A stretch of DNA of 51,567 bases from positions 1 to 51,567 of the forward strand of contig JALXBG010000102.1 of the NCBI GenBank assembly GCA_026991605.1. Direction: 5' to 3'. Every line of letters starts with the position of its first letter. Position 1 is the first letter of the stretch. The stretch is from Sulfurovum sp. Lineage in GTDB: Bacteria; Campylobacterota; Campylobacteria; Campylobacterales; Sulfurovaceae. A program made the translations under genes and the position numbers. The notes beneath the pieces were generated by a model, which ran no database searches, was not told the DNA's origin, and was given only the letters and a program-made list of their open reading frames with translations. This document shows, one piece after another, positions 7,357-12,954 of the stretch.

Positions 7357-7430
7357 TATTCGTGTAAATCTAATATGAATATTTACGATAATTCGCTATA
7401 GTAATAAACTTTCGTGTAGGAGTTGTGAAG

Positions 7431-9860
7431 ATGAAAAATAATCTAAAAAGTTTTATAGGGGTTTTTTTACTCCTTTCTGCGTTTATACTGGCCAAAGAAA
7501 ATGGCTGTTTACATTGTCATGATGGTTTAGCATCGATTCGCGCACACGATTCAGGCATGATGCAAGCGATACTTCTAAAAGCCAAAGAAGCAGGGGCACA
7601 GGGGAATGACTGTGTAGTATGTCATGGAGGAAACCCTTCGGTAGAAGACAATAAAACACAGGCACACTCTGGCACACTCAAATACTTTTTAAGCCATGAA
7701 GGTCCTAAAGATTTTTATCCTTACCCTGCGAGTCCGTGGATCAATGAAAATACCTGTGGGATGTGTCACAAAACACAGGTATCAGCACAGTGGAACAACC
7801 TCATGGCAACTGAACAGGGTAAAATACATGGTGCTATTTGGGGCTTTGGGGCAAAAGAAGGGTATAAACATACCTTTACAGACTTCAACACTACCGCATT
7901 GCATCAGCGGATAGGAACGAAAGCCTATACTGATTATATGGCGAAGTTACAAAAGCAAGAACCCCAAGCCATGCTAAATAAAACCAAAGAACTACCCCCT
8001 GCGCCGACGGCTGCTGAAGTAGAAAAAGATCCTACGCTCTCAGTCTATACCTATTTACGTCAGGAATGTTTACGTTGTCATACAGGCGGTAAGGGACGTG
8101 AACGAAGAGGAGACTTTAGAGGTATAGGTTGTGCAAGTTGTCACATACCTTACTCTAATGCAGGACTTTATGAAGGTAAAGACAAAAGCATTTCCAAGAC
8201 GGAACCAGGACATATGCTTATACATTCTATTCAGTCTTCAAGAGATGTGAAAGTATCTGTAAATGGTGTACACTATAGTGGTGTGCCAGTAGAGACTTGT
8301 ACAACTTGTCATAACCGTGGTAAGCGCATTGGTGTGAGTTATCAGGGACTGATGGAGTCAGGATATAAAGCAACTTTTGATGCAGAGGGGAATGCCCAAC
8401 CCAAACTACATACCAAACGCTACTTGCATCTTACAGAAGATATCCACTATAAAAAAGGGATGCTCTGTCAAGACTGTCATACCTCTAACGATATGCACGG
8501 AGATGGTTTTGCAAGAGGTGCGAACCTTGGTGCAGTGGAGATAGAGTGTCAAGATTGTCATGGAACGACTAAAAAATACCCTTGGGAGTTGCCATTGGGG
8601 TATGGTGATGAGTTTTCTACGACACCTAAGACAGGTAAAGCAAGAGGTACGACAAAAACCTTGGCGGATTACCTCAAACAAGGAAGCATTCCTAAAGACA
8701 AAGGAGATGGTTTCTTGCTTTCTGTCAGAGGCAATCCTTTAGTGAAAGCAGTACGGCATGGCAATAAAGTAATCATGCATTTAGCATCAGGGAAAGATAT
8801 TGAGCTCAAGCCACTAAAACTTCTTAAAGAAGAGAAAAAAATCTCTAAAGAGGGGCTGGTAGCTATGGATCAGATAGAAGCACACACAGATAAGATGGAG
8901 TGTTATACCTGCCATGCTACATGGGCACCTCAATGTTATGGATGTCATGTCAAGATAGACTACTCCAAAGGGCAACAAAATCCAGACTATTTGGCAGCGT
9001 CTAAACACCATAATAACCATGGTGTCACAGGCGAGGGCAAAACGCTTAAACAATTTTTGGTCGATGGTAAAGTCACAGAGACACGCTCTTATCTACGTTG
9101 GGAAAATCCACCGCTAAGTCGTAATGGTGAAGGTCGTATCTCCCCAACCATTCCAGGATGTCAAGTCACCTTGACCGTGATAGGTAAAGATGGTAAAGCG
9201 ATTTTACAAAACCATATCTTTAAACTCAAAGGTGTGGAGAACAACAGTTCAGTCAAAGTACCAAAAGAGGGTGTCAATTCTATTGTTATGTCTCCTGTAC
9301 AACCACACACTATAAGCAAAGCATCACGTACCTGTGAGAGTTGTCATGCCAGTGCTAAAGCATTGGGGTATGGTATCAATTCTGGAAAGTATTTCTCTGA
9401 TCAGAGTAAAACAACTATTGTGGATTTGATGTCTGCACAAAAAAAGCTTTTGGTCAAACAGTTTGATGAACAAATCCCGGCAATACCAAATCTCAAATAT
9501 GACTACTCGGTGATGCTAGATGCAAACGGCACGCAGGTACAAACCGTAGGAGACCACTGGAAACTCTCACAAGCCTTAGATAAAGCAACCAGAGACAAGC
9601 TCGATAGAAGAGGGGTGTGTTTAAGTTGCCATAAAGAGATACCACATAAAAGTTTAGCAGTTTCAGCGATGGTGCATATCTCACAAATGGCAGGGGTCAA
9701 GATAGACAATGATTTCCACAAGCAGATTGTGCATAAAAGTGTGTTGATTAGTGCGTGGGTGCAGGTGCTTATAGGTGTGCTTGGCTTGGTATTTGGAGGT
9801 GTCTTGGTGTATATGTATATGAGACGAAGAAAAATGAAAAAATGTGAAGAGGAGAAATAA
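7431..9860 (+). CDS. membrane-anchored twelve-heme c-type cytochrome
   Basis: Protein of 809 residues with an N-terminal signal peptide and a C-terminal transmembrane helix (about 770-795) followed by an RRRKMKK anchor, so the body faces the periplasm. Twelve CXXCH heme motifs are present in order: CLHCH, CVVCH, CGMCH, CLRCH, CASCH, CTTCH, CQDCH, CQDCH, CYTCH, CYGCH, CESCH, CLSCH. It is probably an electron-transfer or multiheme oxidoreductase protein coupled to the quinone pool; the substrate is not identifiable. ATG 7431 is preferred over GTG 7425 because AGGAG at 7418-7422 is 8 bases upstream of the ATG. It is the first gene of an operon with the ABM protein, aldolase and LsrK. Three PglB-type sequons are visible: DFNTT (N153), ENNSS (N605) and DANGT (N699). 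Confidence 0.9.
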   Translation: MKNNLKSFIGVFLLLSAFILAKENGCLHCHDGLASIRAHDSGMMQAILLKAKEAGAQGNDCVVCHGGNPSVEDNKTQAHSGTLKYFLSHEGPKDFYPYPASPWINENTCGMCHKTQVSAQWNNLMATEQGKIHGAIWGFGAKEGYKHTFTDFNTTALHQRIGTKAYTDYMAKLQKQEPQAMLNKTKELPPAPTAAEVEKDPTLSVYTYLRQECLRCHTGGKGRERRGDFRGIGCASCHIPYSNAGLYEGKDKSISKTEPGHMLIHSIQSSRDVKVSVNGVHYSGVPVETCTTCHNRGKRIGVSYQGLMESGYKATFDAEGNAQPKLHTKRYLHLTEDIHYKKGMLCQDCHTSNDMHGDGFARGANLGAVEIECQDCHGTTKKYPWELPLGYGDEFSTTPKTGKARGTTKTLADYLKQGSIPKDKGDGFLLSVRGNPLVKAVRHGNKVIMHLASGKDIELKPLKLLKEEKKISKEGLVAMDQIEAHTDKMECYTCHATWAPQCYGCHVKIDYSKGQQNPDYLAASKHHNNHGVTGEGKTLKQFLVDGKVTETRSYLRWENPPLSRNGEGRISPTIPGCQVTLTVIGKDGKAILQNHIFKLKGVENNSSVKVPKEGVNSIVMSPVQPHTISKASRTCESCHASAKALGYGINSGKYFSDQSKTTIVDLMSAQKKLLVKQFDEQIPAIPNLKYDYSVMLDANGTQVQTVGDHWKLSQALDKATRDKLDRRGVCLSCHKEIPHKSLAVSAMVHISQMAGVKIDNDFHKQIVHKSVLISAWVQVLIGVLGLVFGGVLVYMYMRRRKMKKCEEEK

Positions 9861-9861
9861 T

Positions 9862-10149
9862 ATGACAATCACAAAAAGAGTAACATTCATCGCCAAAGAG
9901 GGCTGTGAAGAGAAGATGAAAGAACTTTTATCTGCAATGGTAAAGCCTAGCAAGGCTGAAAAAGGTGTGATTTTTTATGAGATATTTCAGTATGTAGACA
10001 ACCCTAGAAAGTTTATGGCGTATGAGTCTTGGGAAGATGAAGCTGCACTTGATGGACATAAAGCATCTGCACACTATGCGGTCTATAAGTCAAGCTATGA
10101 GCCTTACTGTGAACACAAATATTCAGACAATTTAGAAGTGTTGGGCTAG
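9862..10149 (+). CDS. antibiotic biosynthesis monooxygenase (ABM)-fold protein, possible LsrG analogue
   Basis: Small protein of 95 residues with the dimeric ferredoxin-like ABM fold pattern: KRVTFIAKEGCEEKMKELL, then FYEIFQYVDNPRKFMAYESWEDEAALDGHKAS with the conserved Y/F-E-x-W and H-x-x-S/T-x-H-Y type ending. The start at 9862 follows AGAGGAG at 9848-9854 and sits one base after the cytochrome stop. Family members include quinol monooxygenases (YgiN) and LsrG, which acts on phosphorylated DPD in autoinducer-2 breakdown. Because lsrK lies two genes downstream in the same operon, an LsrG-like role is attractive, but the sequence alone does not separate it from other ABM proteins. Confidence 0.8.
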   Translation: MTITKRVTFIAKEGCEEKMKELLSAMVKPSKAEKGVIFYEIFQYVDNPRKFMAYESWEDEAALDGHKASAHYAVYKSSYEPYCEHKYSDNLEVLG

Positions 10150-10152
10150 CAT

Positions 10153-11304
10153 TTGAAAAATCTATGGGAGGATGCTAAGGCATTAGAATGCAAGAGTGAC
10201 CTTGATATGCGCGTGTATACCTCTAATTTGCTTGGGCAGAGCGATGAGCTTGTACTTCATGGTGGAGGGAATACTTCAGTAAAAAGCATGGTAGATGGTG
10301 AAGAGATACTCTATGTAAAAGGTTCTGGTTGGGACTTGGTAAGCATCAAGGCTGAAGGATTTGCCCCTGTAAAAATGGCAACACTTTTAGAGATGGCAAA
10401 GATGAAAAACCTCTCCGACACTGACATGGTAAGTGGACAAAAAGCAGCGATGATAGACGCTACTGCTCCTAATCCGTCGGTAGAAGCCATACTCCATGCA
10501 CTCATTCCCTTTAAAGTGGTAGATCATACCCATGCAGATGCTGTGGTGACCATATCTAACTCTAAACAGGGTAAAGAGATTATAGAAAAACTTTACCCGA
10601 ACTTTCTCATCGTTCCTTATGTGATGCCTGGGTTTATCTTGGCGCAGAAGATTTATGAGATGACAGAGCATGATTTTGACTGGGATACCTGTGAGGGAAT
10701 TATTTTACATAATCATGGCATTTTCACCTTTGATGATGATGCTAAAAAATCGTACGATAAGATGATAGAAGCTGTAAGCAAGGCAGAGGATTTTTTAGAA
10801 GAAAATGCTGAGGTTGTATTCGATGATATCGAACCTACGGTATTTGAATTGGATGATTTGAAGATAGACAAGTTTATGCACGTAAACCAAACACCTTTGG
10901 CAGTATACTATGCCTCTCAAAACAATTTACGACAAGCTGCAACACGAGGGGTATTAACCCCTGAGCATATCATCAGAACCAAACGTGTACCTTTGGTGGT
11001 GGAAGACTGGGACGTTGAGGATGCATTAAGACATTACCGTGTTGCGTATGAAACCTATTTTAATGCCTATAAAACAGATGAAATTATGCTTGATAGCCGA
11101 CCAAAATATGCTGTTGTTAAAAACTTTGGGATTGTCACATTTGGCAAGACCCAAAAAGAGGCAGATGTTATCAATGATGTGGTGGAACATACCATGATGG
11201 CAGTGCTACGTGCAGATAAACTGGGTGGCTATCAGAGTATCTCTATAGTAGATAGTTTTGATATGGAGTATTGGGAACTAGAGCAGGCGAAATTGAAAAA
11301 GTAA
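10153..11304 (+). CDS. class II aldolase/adducin family protein
   Basis: Protein of 383 residues resembling the aldolase half of the bifunctional rhamnulose-phosphate aldolase/alcohol dehydrogenase family, but without the C-terminal dehydrogenase. Visible motifs are RVYTSNLLGQSDELVLHGGGNTSVK near the N-terminus, VDHTHADAVVTIS and ILHNHGIFTFDD, which give the histidines of the zinc site. The start is a TTG at 10153, three bases after the previous stop; it is the only start that keeps the conserved N-terminal KNLWEDAKA segment. Class II aldolases cleave phosphorylated ketoses or sugar derivatives to a triose phosphate and an aldehyde. Placed before lsrK it may act on phosphorylated DPD or a related compound in place of the thiolase LsrF; that is inference. 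Confidence 0.85.
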   Translation: MKNLWEDAKALECKSDLDMRVYTSNLLGQSDELVLHGGGNTSVKSMVDGEEILYVKGSGWDLVSIKAEGFAPVKMATLLEMAKMKNLSDTDMVSGQKAAMIDATAPNPSVEAILHALIPFKVVDHTHADAVVTISNSKQGKEIIEKLYPNFLIVPYVMPGFILAQKIYEMTEHDFDWDTCEGIILHNHGIFTFDDDAKKSYDKMIEAVSKAEDFLEENAEVVFDDIEPTVFELDDLKIDKFMHVNQTPLAVYYASQNNLRQAATRGVLTPEHIIRTKRVPLVVEDWDVEDALRHYRVAYETYFNAYKTDEIMLDSRPKYAVVKNFGIVTFGKTQKEADVINDVVEHTMMAVLRADKLGGYQSISIVDSFDMEYWELEQAKLKK

Positions 11305-11306
11305 AA

Positions 11307-11372
11307 GGGCAACCACAAGGGATTGCCCCTACGGTATATATGTAGGGGTATACCCCCCCCTTGTGGGTACCC
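11307..11372. repeat. imperfect palindromic intergenic repeat with C8 tract in lsrK leader
   Basis: The left arm GGGCAACCACAAGGG (11307-11321) with GCCCCTAC (11325-11332) is mirrored by GTAGGGGTATACC and CCCTTGTGGGTACCC on the right, around a GGTATATAT centre. The core GGGCAACCACAAGGG/GCCCCTAC resembles short mobile palindromes seen between genes in many unrelated bacteria. It contains a run of eight C at 11353-11360. It separates the aldolase and lsrK, whose neighbours are otherwise tightly packed. Confidence 0.75.
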
Positions 11373-11391
11373 AATGGACGAAGGGACAATT

Positions 11392-12954
11392 ATGCAATAC
11401 CTCATGGCAATAGATGCAGGGACAGGCTCAGTAAGAGCGGTGATATTTGACACCAAAGGTAAGCAAATCTCTGTGGCACAAAAAGAGTGGATACACTTAG
11501 AAGTAGAAGGTGTGCCAAACTCTATGACTTTCGATGTCAAGAAGAATTGGGACTTGGCAGTCTGGTGCATAAGAACAGCATTGGAAACAGCTGAACTAAA
11601 AGGCTCTGATATTTTAGCTGTATCTGCTACCTCTATGCGCGAAGGTATTGTAGTGTATGACAAAGAGGGAACAGCCATCTGGGGCGTTGCCAATGTCGAT
11701 GCCCGTGCAGACAAAGAGGTACGTTATTTAAAAGAATACTATGAAGGCATAGAAGAAGCATTTTATGCAGAGTCTGGACAGACTTTTGCTTTGGGTACTT
11801 TGCCTCGCCTATTATGGTTAAAAAATAATGAACCTGCACTCTATGAAAACGTAGCCTCCATCAGTATGATAGGAGACTGGATACTGGCAAAACTCTCAGG
11901 TATCATAGCCACCGATCCAAGTAATGGAGGAACTACGGGCATTTTCTCTTTAGAAAAGCGTCAGTGGTCTGCACATATGGCAGAAGAAGTAGGCATAAAA
12001 ACAGACATCTTCCCTCCTGTCTTGGAAACAGGAACAGCTATGGGAAATGTCACAGTACAAGCCAGCCAAGAGACAGGACTCTCTACAGCAACCAAAGTTG
12101 TGATGGGTGGGGGAGATGTGCAGTTGGGTGCAGCAGGGCTTGGTGTCGTAAAAGAGGGACAGGTAGCCATACTCGGAGGCTCTTTTTGGCAACAAGTGGT
12201 CAATATCAAAAGTTCTGTCAACCCACCTAAAGATATGAGTATAAGGGTGAACCCTCACGTCATAGAAGGACTCTCCCAAGCAGAGGGCATTACCTTCTTT
12301 TCGGGACTTATCATGCGATGGTTTAGGGATGCCTTTTGTGATCTAGAAAAACTAGAAGCTCTTGATCGAGGTGTAGATGCCTATGAAATACTTGAAGAGA
12401 AAGCCAAAAAAGTACCCGTAGGCGCACACGGCATATTACCCATCTTCTCAGACAGCATGAACTACGGAAAATGGTACCACGCTGCCCCATCCTTCATCAA
12501 TCTTTCCATAGACCCAGAAGTATGCAATAAAGCTTCTATGTTTAGAAGTCTAGAAGAGAATGCGTGTATTGTCTCAGCCATTAACCTAGAAAAGATAAAA
12601 GCATTTACAGCATTAGAGATAGATGAAATTGTTTTTGCAGGAGGGGCGAGTAAAGGTGACCTATGGTGTCAAATACTTGCAGATGTAACGGGATGTAAAA
12701 TAAAGATACCTAAAGTGACAGAAGCTACAGCATTGGGCGCGGCTATGGCAGCGGGTGTAGGTGTGGGTGTATATGAAAGTATGGTAGATGCAGCTGAAGG
12801 ATTGGTGCAGTGGGATAAAGAGTATGTCTCAGACAATAAAAATTATAAAAGATATAAAGAGATAGAAGTCAAGTGGAAAAAAGTATATACAAGTCAACTG
12901 GCACTTGTGGATAAAAATTTGACACAGAGTATGTGGACCGCACCAGGAGTTTGA
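11392..12954 (+). CDS. lsrK: autoinducer-2 kinase LsrK (FGGY family)
   Basis: Kinase of 520 residues that in enteric bacteria phosphorylates DPD (autoinducer-2) at C5 in the cytoplasm. It matches LsrK along its full length, well beyond generic FGGY kinases: LMAIDAGTGSVRAVIFD at the N-terminus (nucleotide-binding Asp8), SMREGIVVYDKEG, IWGVANVDARA, GGDVQLGAAGLG, GSFWQQVVN, FFSGLIMRWFRDAFC, WYHAAPSFINLSIDPE, FAGGASKGDLWCQILADV and ATALGAAMAAGVG. The start ATG 11392 is preferred because AGGGA lies just upstream and it begins at the conserved kinase core; ATGs at 11323 and 11374 are in the same frame but run through the palindromic repeat. No Lsr transporter or LsrR repressor gene is nearby. It is the last gene of the cytochrome-ABM-aldolase operon. 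Confidence 0.9.
   Translation: MQYLMAIDAGTGSVRAVIFDTKGKQISVAQKEWIHLEVEGVPNSMTFDVKKNWDLAVWCIRTALETAELKGSDILAVSATSMREGIVVYDKEGTAIWGVANVDARADKEVRYLKEYYEGIEEAFYAESGQTFALGTLPRLLWLKNNEPALYENVASISMIGDWILAKLSGIIATDPSNGGTTGIFSLEKRQWSAHMAEEVGIKTDIFPPVLETGTAMGNVTVQASQETGLSTATKVVMGGGDVQLGAAGLGVVKEGQVAILGGSFWQQVVNIKSSVNPPKDMSIRVNPHVIEGLSQAEGITFFSGLIMRWFRDAFCDLEKLEALDRGVDAYEILEEKAKKVPVGAHGILPIFSDSMNYGKWYHAAPSFINLSIDPEVCNKASMFRSLEENACIVSAINLEKIKAFTALEIDEIVFAGGASKGDLWCQILADVTGCKIKIPKVTEATALGAAMAAGVGVGVYESMVDAAEGLVQWDKEYVSDNKNYKRYKEIEVKWKKVYTSQLALVDKNLTQSMWTAPGV

Follow-up and report, generated by a model that had tools for sequence, protein, structure and literature searches.

How does a bacterium which possesses an autoinducer-2 (AI-2) kinase, with no recognizable Lsr importer, regulator or thiolase gene beside it, process the phosphorylated compound? 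The question is raised by a 51,567-nucleotide stretch of DNA from a Sulfurovum sp. (contig JALXBG010000102.1 of GenBank assembly GCA_026991605.1; hereafter "the window"), in which the genes for an antibiotic biosynthesis monooxygenase (ABM)-fold protein, a class II aldolase and the kinase LsrK lie consecutively on one strand. The host genome (1.97 Mb, 89% complete) belongs to the Campylobacterota and is close to Sulfurovum. In E. coli LsrK converts 4,5-dihydroxy-2,3-pentanedione (DPD) to phospho-DPD (P-DPD), LsrG isomerizes this product and LsrF moves the acetyl part to coenzyme A (CoA), leaving dihydroxyacetone phosphate (DHAP) (PMC8016206, PMC7828210). What becomes of AI-2 in bacteria that lack LsrF has been described as yet to be determined (PMC7828210). 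The three genes are a concrete three-enzyme candidate for that fate, with strong comparative support: this unit of sulfur-oxidizing Campylobacterota probably takes apart the cell's own LuxS-made AI-2, employing a metal aldolase in place of the thiolase LsrF.

The members of the cassette, the first two of which are separated by 3 bp, are:

9862..10149, plus strand: ABM-fold protein of 95 amino acids, proposed phospho-DPD isomerase (LsrG role); PF03992 at 1e-14, AF2 model
10153..11304, plus strand: class II aldolase of 383 amino acids with a TTG start and no short-chain dehydrogenase/reductase (SDR) domain, proposed to carry out C-C cleavage (LsrF role); PF00596 at 2e-21
11392..12954, plus strand: protein of 520 amino acids assigned as LsrK, the AI-2 (DPD) kinase; NF008187 at 870 bits, PDB 5ya0 at 3e-190

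Identity of the kinase

The initial annotation had named the kinase LsrK, and this call is secure. The score against the NCBIfam autoinducer-2 kinase equivalog NF008187 is well above its cut-off of 528 bits, while the second-best family, xylulokinase, reaches 192 bits, which rules out a generic FGGY sugar kinase. The protein is 55.5% identical to E. coli K-12 LsrK across 519 amino acids, and its match in the structure database (5ya0) is E. coli LsrK itself. The putative DPD-pocket residues of LsrK are T21, S91, M92, R93, D253, V254, F276, Q278, E308 and I310 (PMC8016206). The window protein keeps all ten of these modelled positions, as do 14 diverse Campylobacterota LsrKs bar one V to T replacement. 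On these sequence comparisons we assign the protein to LsrK with high confidence. The contacts that E. coli LsrK makes with HPr are changed (E122Y, A155K and M210E, corresponding to residues 112, 144 and 199 of the window protein), the replacements in Campylobacterota LsrK being partly charged residues. Since these residues are not kept, control by HPr is unlikely here, which suggests that regulation of the Campylobacterota enzyme through the phosphotransferase system (PTS) has been lost.

Distribution and linkage of the three genes

Of 397 Campylobacterota genomes drawn evenly, 63 (20 genera) were found to encode LsrK and 65 the aldolase. Every one of the 63 LsrK-positive genomes encodes the aldolase, compared with 2 of the 334 others, and in both of these aldolase-only genomes the gene lies at a contig end, adjacent to the ABM gene in G335 and to luxS in G389. 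The presence of LsrK agrees with that of the aldolase inside genera of mixed presence (within-genus shuffle p ~3e-14; genus lists compiled by hand, G389 and genus g5 left out), so that the pair cannot be explained as a clade marker only. A high-scoring tier of ABM proteins (≥132 bits) was present in 59 of the 63 genomes and in G335; a lower tier (95–105 bits), found in six LsrK-negative genomes, looks like a paralogue.

Among the 62 lsrK loci other than the window, the aldolase gene is no more than 5 kb from lsrK in 41 and the ABM gene in 44, and the order ABM-aldolase-lsrK with gaps below 500 bp is preserved in 23. The carriers include Sulfurovum, Sulfurimonas, Sulfurospirillum, Arcobacter and Sulfuricurvum. 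These neighbourhoods rule out a linkage private to this genome, and confirm the conservation across the Campylobacterota on which the initial annotation had made its proposal depend. We conclude with high confidence that the three proteins are partners in a real, phylum-wide functional unit.

Missing Lsr components

A tblastn search of the window with the E. coli proteins recognized no lsrF, lsrB or lsrR, and no lsrA, lsrC or lsrD was recognized from gene context, the only criterion applied to these three; this agrees with the earlier observation that the Lsr transporter and lsrR are lacking near the cassette. In the whole genome (an assembly 89% complete) no gene was found for PF04198 (LsrR), PF01791 (the LsrF superfamily) or PF13407 (LsrB). 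Eight of the 63 LsrK-positive genomes carry a member of the LsrF superfamily and the other 55 do not. Three sequences tested from these eight scored 46–53 bits against an LsrF cut-off of 297 and are PRK06852 aldolases. An LsrF hidden elsewhere is thus ruled out for most genomes, the three tested matches belonging to another aldolase family.

The same searches bear on whether the cassette is instead a quorum-quenching or signalling module, in which external AI-2 would enter through a non-Lsr importer and phospho-DPD would be read by some regulator. Other bacteria do take up AI-2 through other importers, and 30 of the 63 LsrK-positive genomes encode periplasmic proteins that bind sugars and belong to the LsrB superfamily (an assignment at the superfamily level only). 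Nevertheless, this genome has no such protein and 33 of the 63 lack one, an LsrR-family regulator (PF04198) was found in none of the 63, and no transporter is widely conserved across the neighbourhoods. We consider a signalling module highly improbable. As the cassette includes neither an importer nor LsrR, its substrate is likely to be the cell's own DPD.

Supply of DPD

The luxS gene, which the initial annotation had proposed as a point to check, was found in the host genome. LuxS is encoded by all 63 LsrK-positive genomes, but also by 350 of the 397 overall, and its co-occurrence was therefore dropped as strong evidence. In six Sulfuricurvum-type genomes and in Sulfuricurvum sp. 17-40-25 (L173) lsrK, the ABM gene, the aldolase gene and luxS are clustered; in the latter they span ca. 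4.3 kb and luxS passes its equivalog model. A 2008 survey reported that luxS and the lsr operon were never close together (PMC2561040). In 13 other loci, of the Sulfurimonas type, metK adjoins or neighbours lsrK. Whether LuxS serves mainly signalling or metabolism has long been argued (PMC2561040). The combination of a DPD kinase with cleavage enzymes adjoining luxS or metK, without importer or regulator, points to metabolism, and from it LsrK-positive Campylobacterota are predicted to release less AI-2 than their LsrK-negative relatives.

The aldolase and the loss of its reductase domain

The aldolase matched PF00596 with 77 bits, and over its whole 383 amino acids it is homologous to the aldolase part of PRK08324, a family of aldolase/SDR proteins. 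The C-terminal SDR of that family is not present, the window protein stopping after the aldolase part. Its AlphaFold model (predicted local distance difference test score, pLDDT, 91) is closest in the PDB to 3m4r, followed by fuculose-1-phosphate aldolases and DrdA, an aldolase acting on 5-deoxyribulose-1-phosphate. Residues E111, H125, H127 and H188 are invariant across 21 orthologues; by motif comparison with FucA we take these to be the catalytic Glu and the three metal-binding His.

A tree of 116 aldolase sequences separated a clade of 75, including the cassette enzymes, from a sister clade of 41 (SH-aLRT 99). In the former 61 members are linked to lsrK and none to mtnA, whereas in the latter 17 are linked to mtnA and five to lsrK. 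None of the 74 cassette-clade proteins tested continues past the aldolase part, and none has an SDR; 39 of the 40 complete members of the sister clade have an extension of at least 150 amino acids, which in locus L080 is an SDR. The SDR is decayed in four of the five long-form aldolases linked to lsrK without mtnA, versus two of the 17 linked to mtnA, though these calls are based on motifs and length and the numbers are small. Judged from the tree and domain content, the cassette aldolase forms a separate clade that has lost the SDR of its sister clade. It derives from a family which serves 5-deoxypentose (MtnK/MtnA) salvage, and this ancestry offers a chemical reason for its recruitment. Loss of the SDR in the lsrK context is what would be expected if the cleavage product needs no redox step.

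Two Sulfurimonas-type loci, L080 and L093, carry ABM, lsrK, metK, mtnK, mtnA and aldolase/SDR genes all in a row, that is, a complete-looking 5-deoxypentose operon of the DHAP-shunt type joined to the AI-2 kinase. In L088 the frame of a decayed aldolase-SDR continues in frame into a downstream MqnE-like radical S-adenosylmethionine (SAM) gene to give 908 amino acids, apparently a fusion that arose naturally or a product of decay.

Given this ancestry, "LsrK" might itself be a 5-deoxypentulose kinase, the cassette being a variant of 5-deoxyribose/methylthioribose salvage (DHAP shunt) in which it replaces MtnK-MtnA, with DPD not its substrate. In Sulfurimonas-type genomes lsrK has metK next to it, together with a menaquinone gene of the radical-SAM class (assigned as MqnE-like from sequence only), and mtnA is absent from 42 of the 63 LsrK-positive genomes; MtnA (TIGR00512) was also absent from the window's own genome. 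Against this are the strong LsrK equivalog score together with the retained DPD pocket, and the adjacency of luxS. Furthermore, 21 of the LsrK-positive genomes do encode MtnA, and the coexistence of lsrK, mtnK and mtnA in L080 and L093 indicates that LsrK is no simple replacement. We regard such a substitution as very unlikely.

The ABM-fold protein

The small protein had been described as having the fold of LsrG. That part holds: in addition to the match to PF03992, the AF2 model (pLDDT 97) superimposes on LsrG (3qmq) with a template modelling (TM) score of 0.92, at just 20% identity. Orthology to LsrG was not demonstrated, since the protein reached 28 bits against the LsrG equivalog NF007791, the cut-off of which is 135.

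Proposed pathway

We propose that the cassette provides for cytosolic disposal and carbon salvage of DPD, the skeleton freed by LuxS during homocysteine regeneration. LsrK would phosphorylate cytosolic DPD at C5, as its orthology and pocket residues imply. The ABM protein, to judge from its fold, linkage and co-occurrence, would then shift the ketone as LsrG does, converting P-DPD to 3-hydroxy-2,4-pentadione-5-phosphate. Finally, the class II metal aldolase would bind the DHAP half to its metal as the enediolate and cleave the C2–C3 bond; if the C2 ketone is hydrated, this would yield DHAP and a two-carbon compound, probably acetate. Such a reaction would need neither CoA, as LsrF does, nor a redox domain. 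In the LsrF reaction DHAP departs as its enediolate, a species that class II aldolases stabilize on their metal. 5-Deoxyribulose-1-phosphate has an alcohol where the P-DPD isomer has a ketone and is otherwise identical to it, so that a class II aldolase of this lineage could cleave the hydrated diketone to DHAP and acetate. The output would be recovery of carbon and a lowering of AI-2 rather than AI-2-induced gene control.

The joint pathway of the initial annotation has much firmer support than a single genome could give, from the near-perfect co-occurrence of the three genes, the adjacency of luxS or metK and the absence of LsrF and LsrR, and it is still a pathway that we infer. That LsrK, the ABM protein and the aldolase dispose of and salvage the cell's own DPD we consider likely; in its chemistry we have moderate confidence. 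The fuller proposition seems to us evenly poised: a second catabolic route for phospho-AI-2, independent of LsrF and widespread in the Campylobacterota, would serve the cell's own LuxS product and not signalling, and in it a class II metal aldolase taken over from 5-deoxypentose salvage would split the diketone by hydrolysis into DHAP and acetate. If true, bacteria with LuxS can recover or remove DPD internally rather than export all of it as AI-2.

Several points weigh against this interpretation. We know of no class II aldolase which performs a hydrolytic retro-Claisen cleavage. The ABM protein, besides falling below the LsrG model, is equally near to uncharacterized ABM proteins such as PA3566. 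LuxS is near-universal in the phylum, so that its presence in every LsrK-positive genome discriminates little. The adjacency of luxS is confined to one genus and that of metK mostly to one genus, and each may represent a single event.

The main rival to hydrolytic cleavage is that reduction comes first. A reductase encoded elsewhere, unlinked to the cassette, would turn the ABM product into 5-deoxypentulose-1-phosphate, and the aldolase would then carry out an ordinary retro-aldol reaction to DHAP and acetaldehyde. The two substrates differ by two hydrogens, and the sister clade consists of aldolase-SDR fusions linked to mtnK-mtnA, i.e. to the making of 5-deoxypentulose-1-phosphates. The DHAP shunt cleaves 5-deoxyribulose-1-phosphate to DHAP and acetaldehyde (PMC6079011, PMC10986504), and the fold neighbours of the cassette enzyme include DrdA (6btd), the preferred aldehyde of which is acetaldehyde (PMC6079011). 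On the other hand, the whole cassette clade lacks the SDR, most of the long forms accompanied by lsrK and not mtnA have it in a decayed state, and no conserved reductase gene was evident in the neighbourhoods (clusters judged by sequence, part of them scanned). A reduction step preceding cleavage is unlikely in our estimation.

Comparison with known systems

The cassette is a new variant of AI-2 processing; searches of the open-licence literature on LsrK in the genera Sulfurimonas, Sulfurovum and Arcobacter found no description of it. With the Lsr system of E. coli and Salmonella (lsrACDBFG, lsrRK) it shares an LsrK orthologue, an ABM-fold protein in the position of LsrG and the expected end product, DHAP. 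It differs in being devoid of the LsrACDB genes, LsrR and LsrF, in possessing a class II metal aldolase where Lsr has a CoA thiolase of class I fold, and in an LsrK which does not keep the HPr contacts of the E. coli enzyme.

The DHAP shunt and 5-deoxyribose disposal pathways (MtnK-MtnA-Ald2; DrdK-DrdI-DrdA) likewise apply a kinase, an isomerase and a class II aldolase to a five-carbon by-product of SAM metabolism, and it is to mtnK-mtnA that the sister clade of the cassette aldolase is linked. The cassette, by comparison, employs an FGGY kinase (LsrK) rather than a member of the methylthioribose (MTR) kinase family and ABM rather than MtnA, has no SDR, and in Sulfuricurvum is linked to luxS. 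The bifunctional rhamnulose-1-phosphate aldolase/SDR (PRK08324, RhaD-ADH) is homologous in its aldolase half over 383 amino acids; the cassette enzyme lacks the SDR, and its context is LsrK and ABM, not rhamnose or methylthioribose genes. In several Clostridium whose Lsr system lacks LsrF, AI-2 is internalized and likewise processed without the thiolase (PMC7828210); those have the LsrB receptor and importer.

Additional and neighbouring genes

Directly 3' of lsrK, loci of the Arcobacteraceae type, of some Sulfurovaceae and of Shewanella (L049, L051, L054, L055, L073, L079, L085, L103, L108, L126 and, at 10791–11165, L154) encode a small Cupin_2 protein (ca. 123 amino acids). By genome search it was found in 11 of the 63 LsrK-positive genomes and in none of the 11 LsrK-negative genomes tested. 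It is possibly a fourth enzyme and, in Shewanella, perhaps a substitute for ABM. Outside the Campylobacterota, in Shewanella sp. UCD-KL12 (L154), an aldolase with an SDR remnant, LsrK and the cupin stand in a row, with no close ABM orthologue (best 50 bits). In Shewanella benthica KT99 (L160, 6986–9190) an aldolase with a decayed SDR is followed directly by the cupin without lsrK, which has apparently been lost from this cassette.

Upstream of the cassette in the window, positions 7425–9860 encode an 811-amino acid multihaem cytochrome with Pfam matches of the MtrC/MtrF-like and c7 types. It was not seen 5' of the cassette in the relatives compared. Its stop codon lies 1 bp before the ABM start, so that it is possibly cotranscribed with ABM here. 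Part of the 87 bp upstream of lsrK is occupied by an element of the repetitive extragenic palindromic (REP) type:

11303..11373, no strand assigned: REP-like inverted repeat between the aldolase gene and lsrK; RNA fold -38.1 kcal/mol, z -2.8

We do not count this element as belonging to the pathway; it is dispersed in the genome, where about four further good copies occur along with several that are partial.

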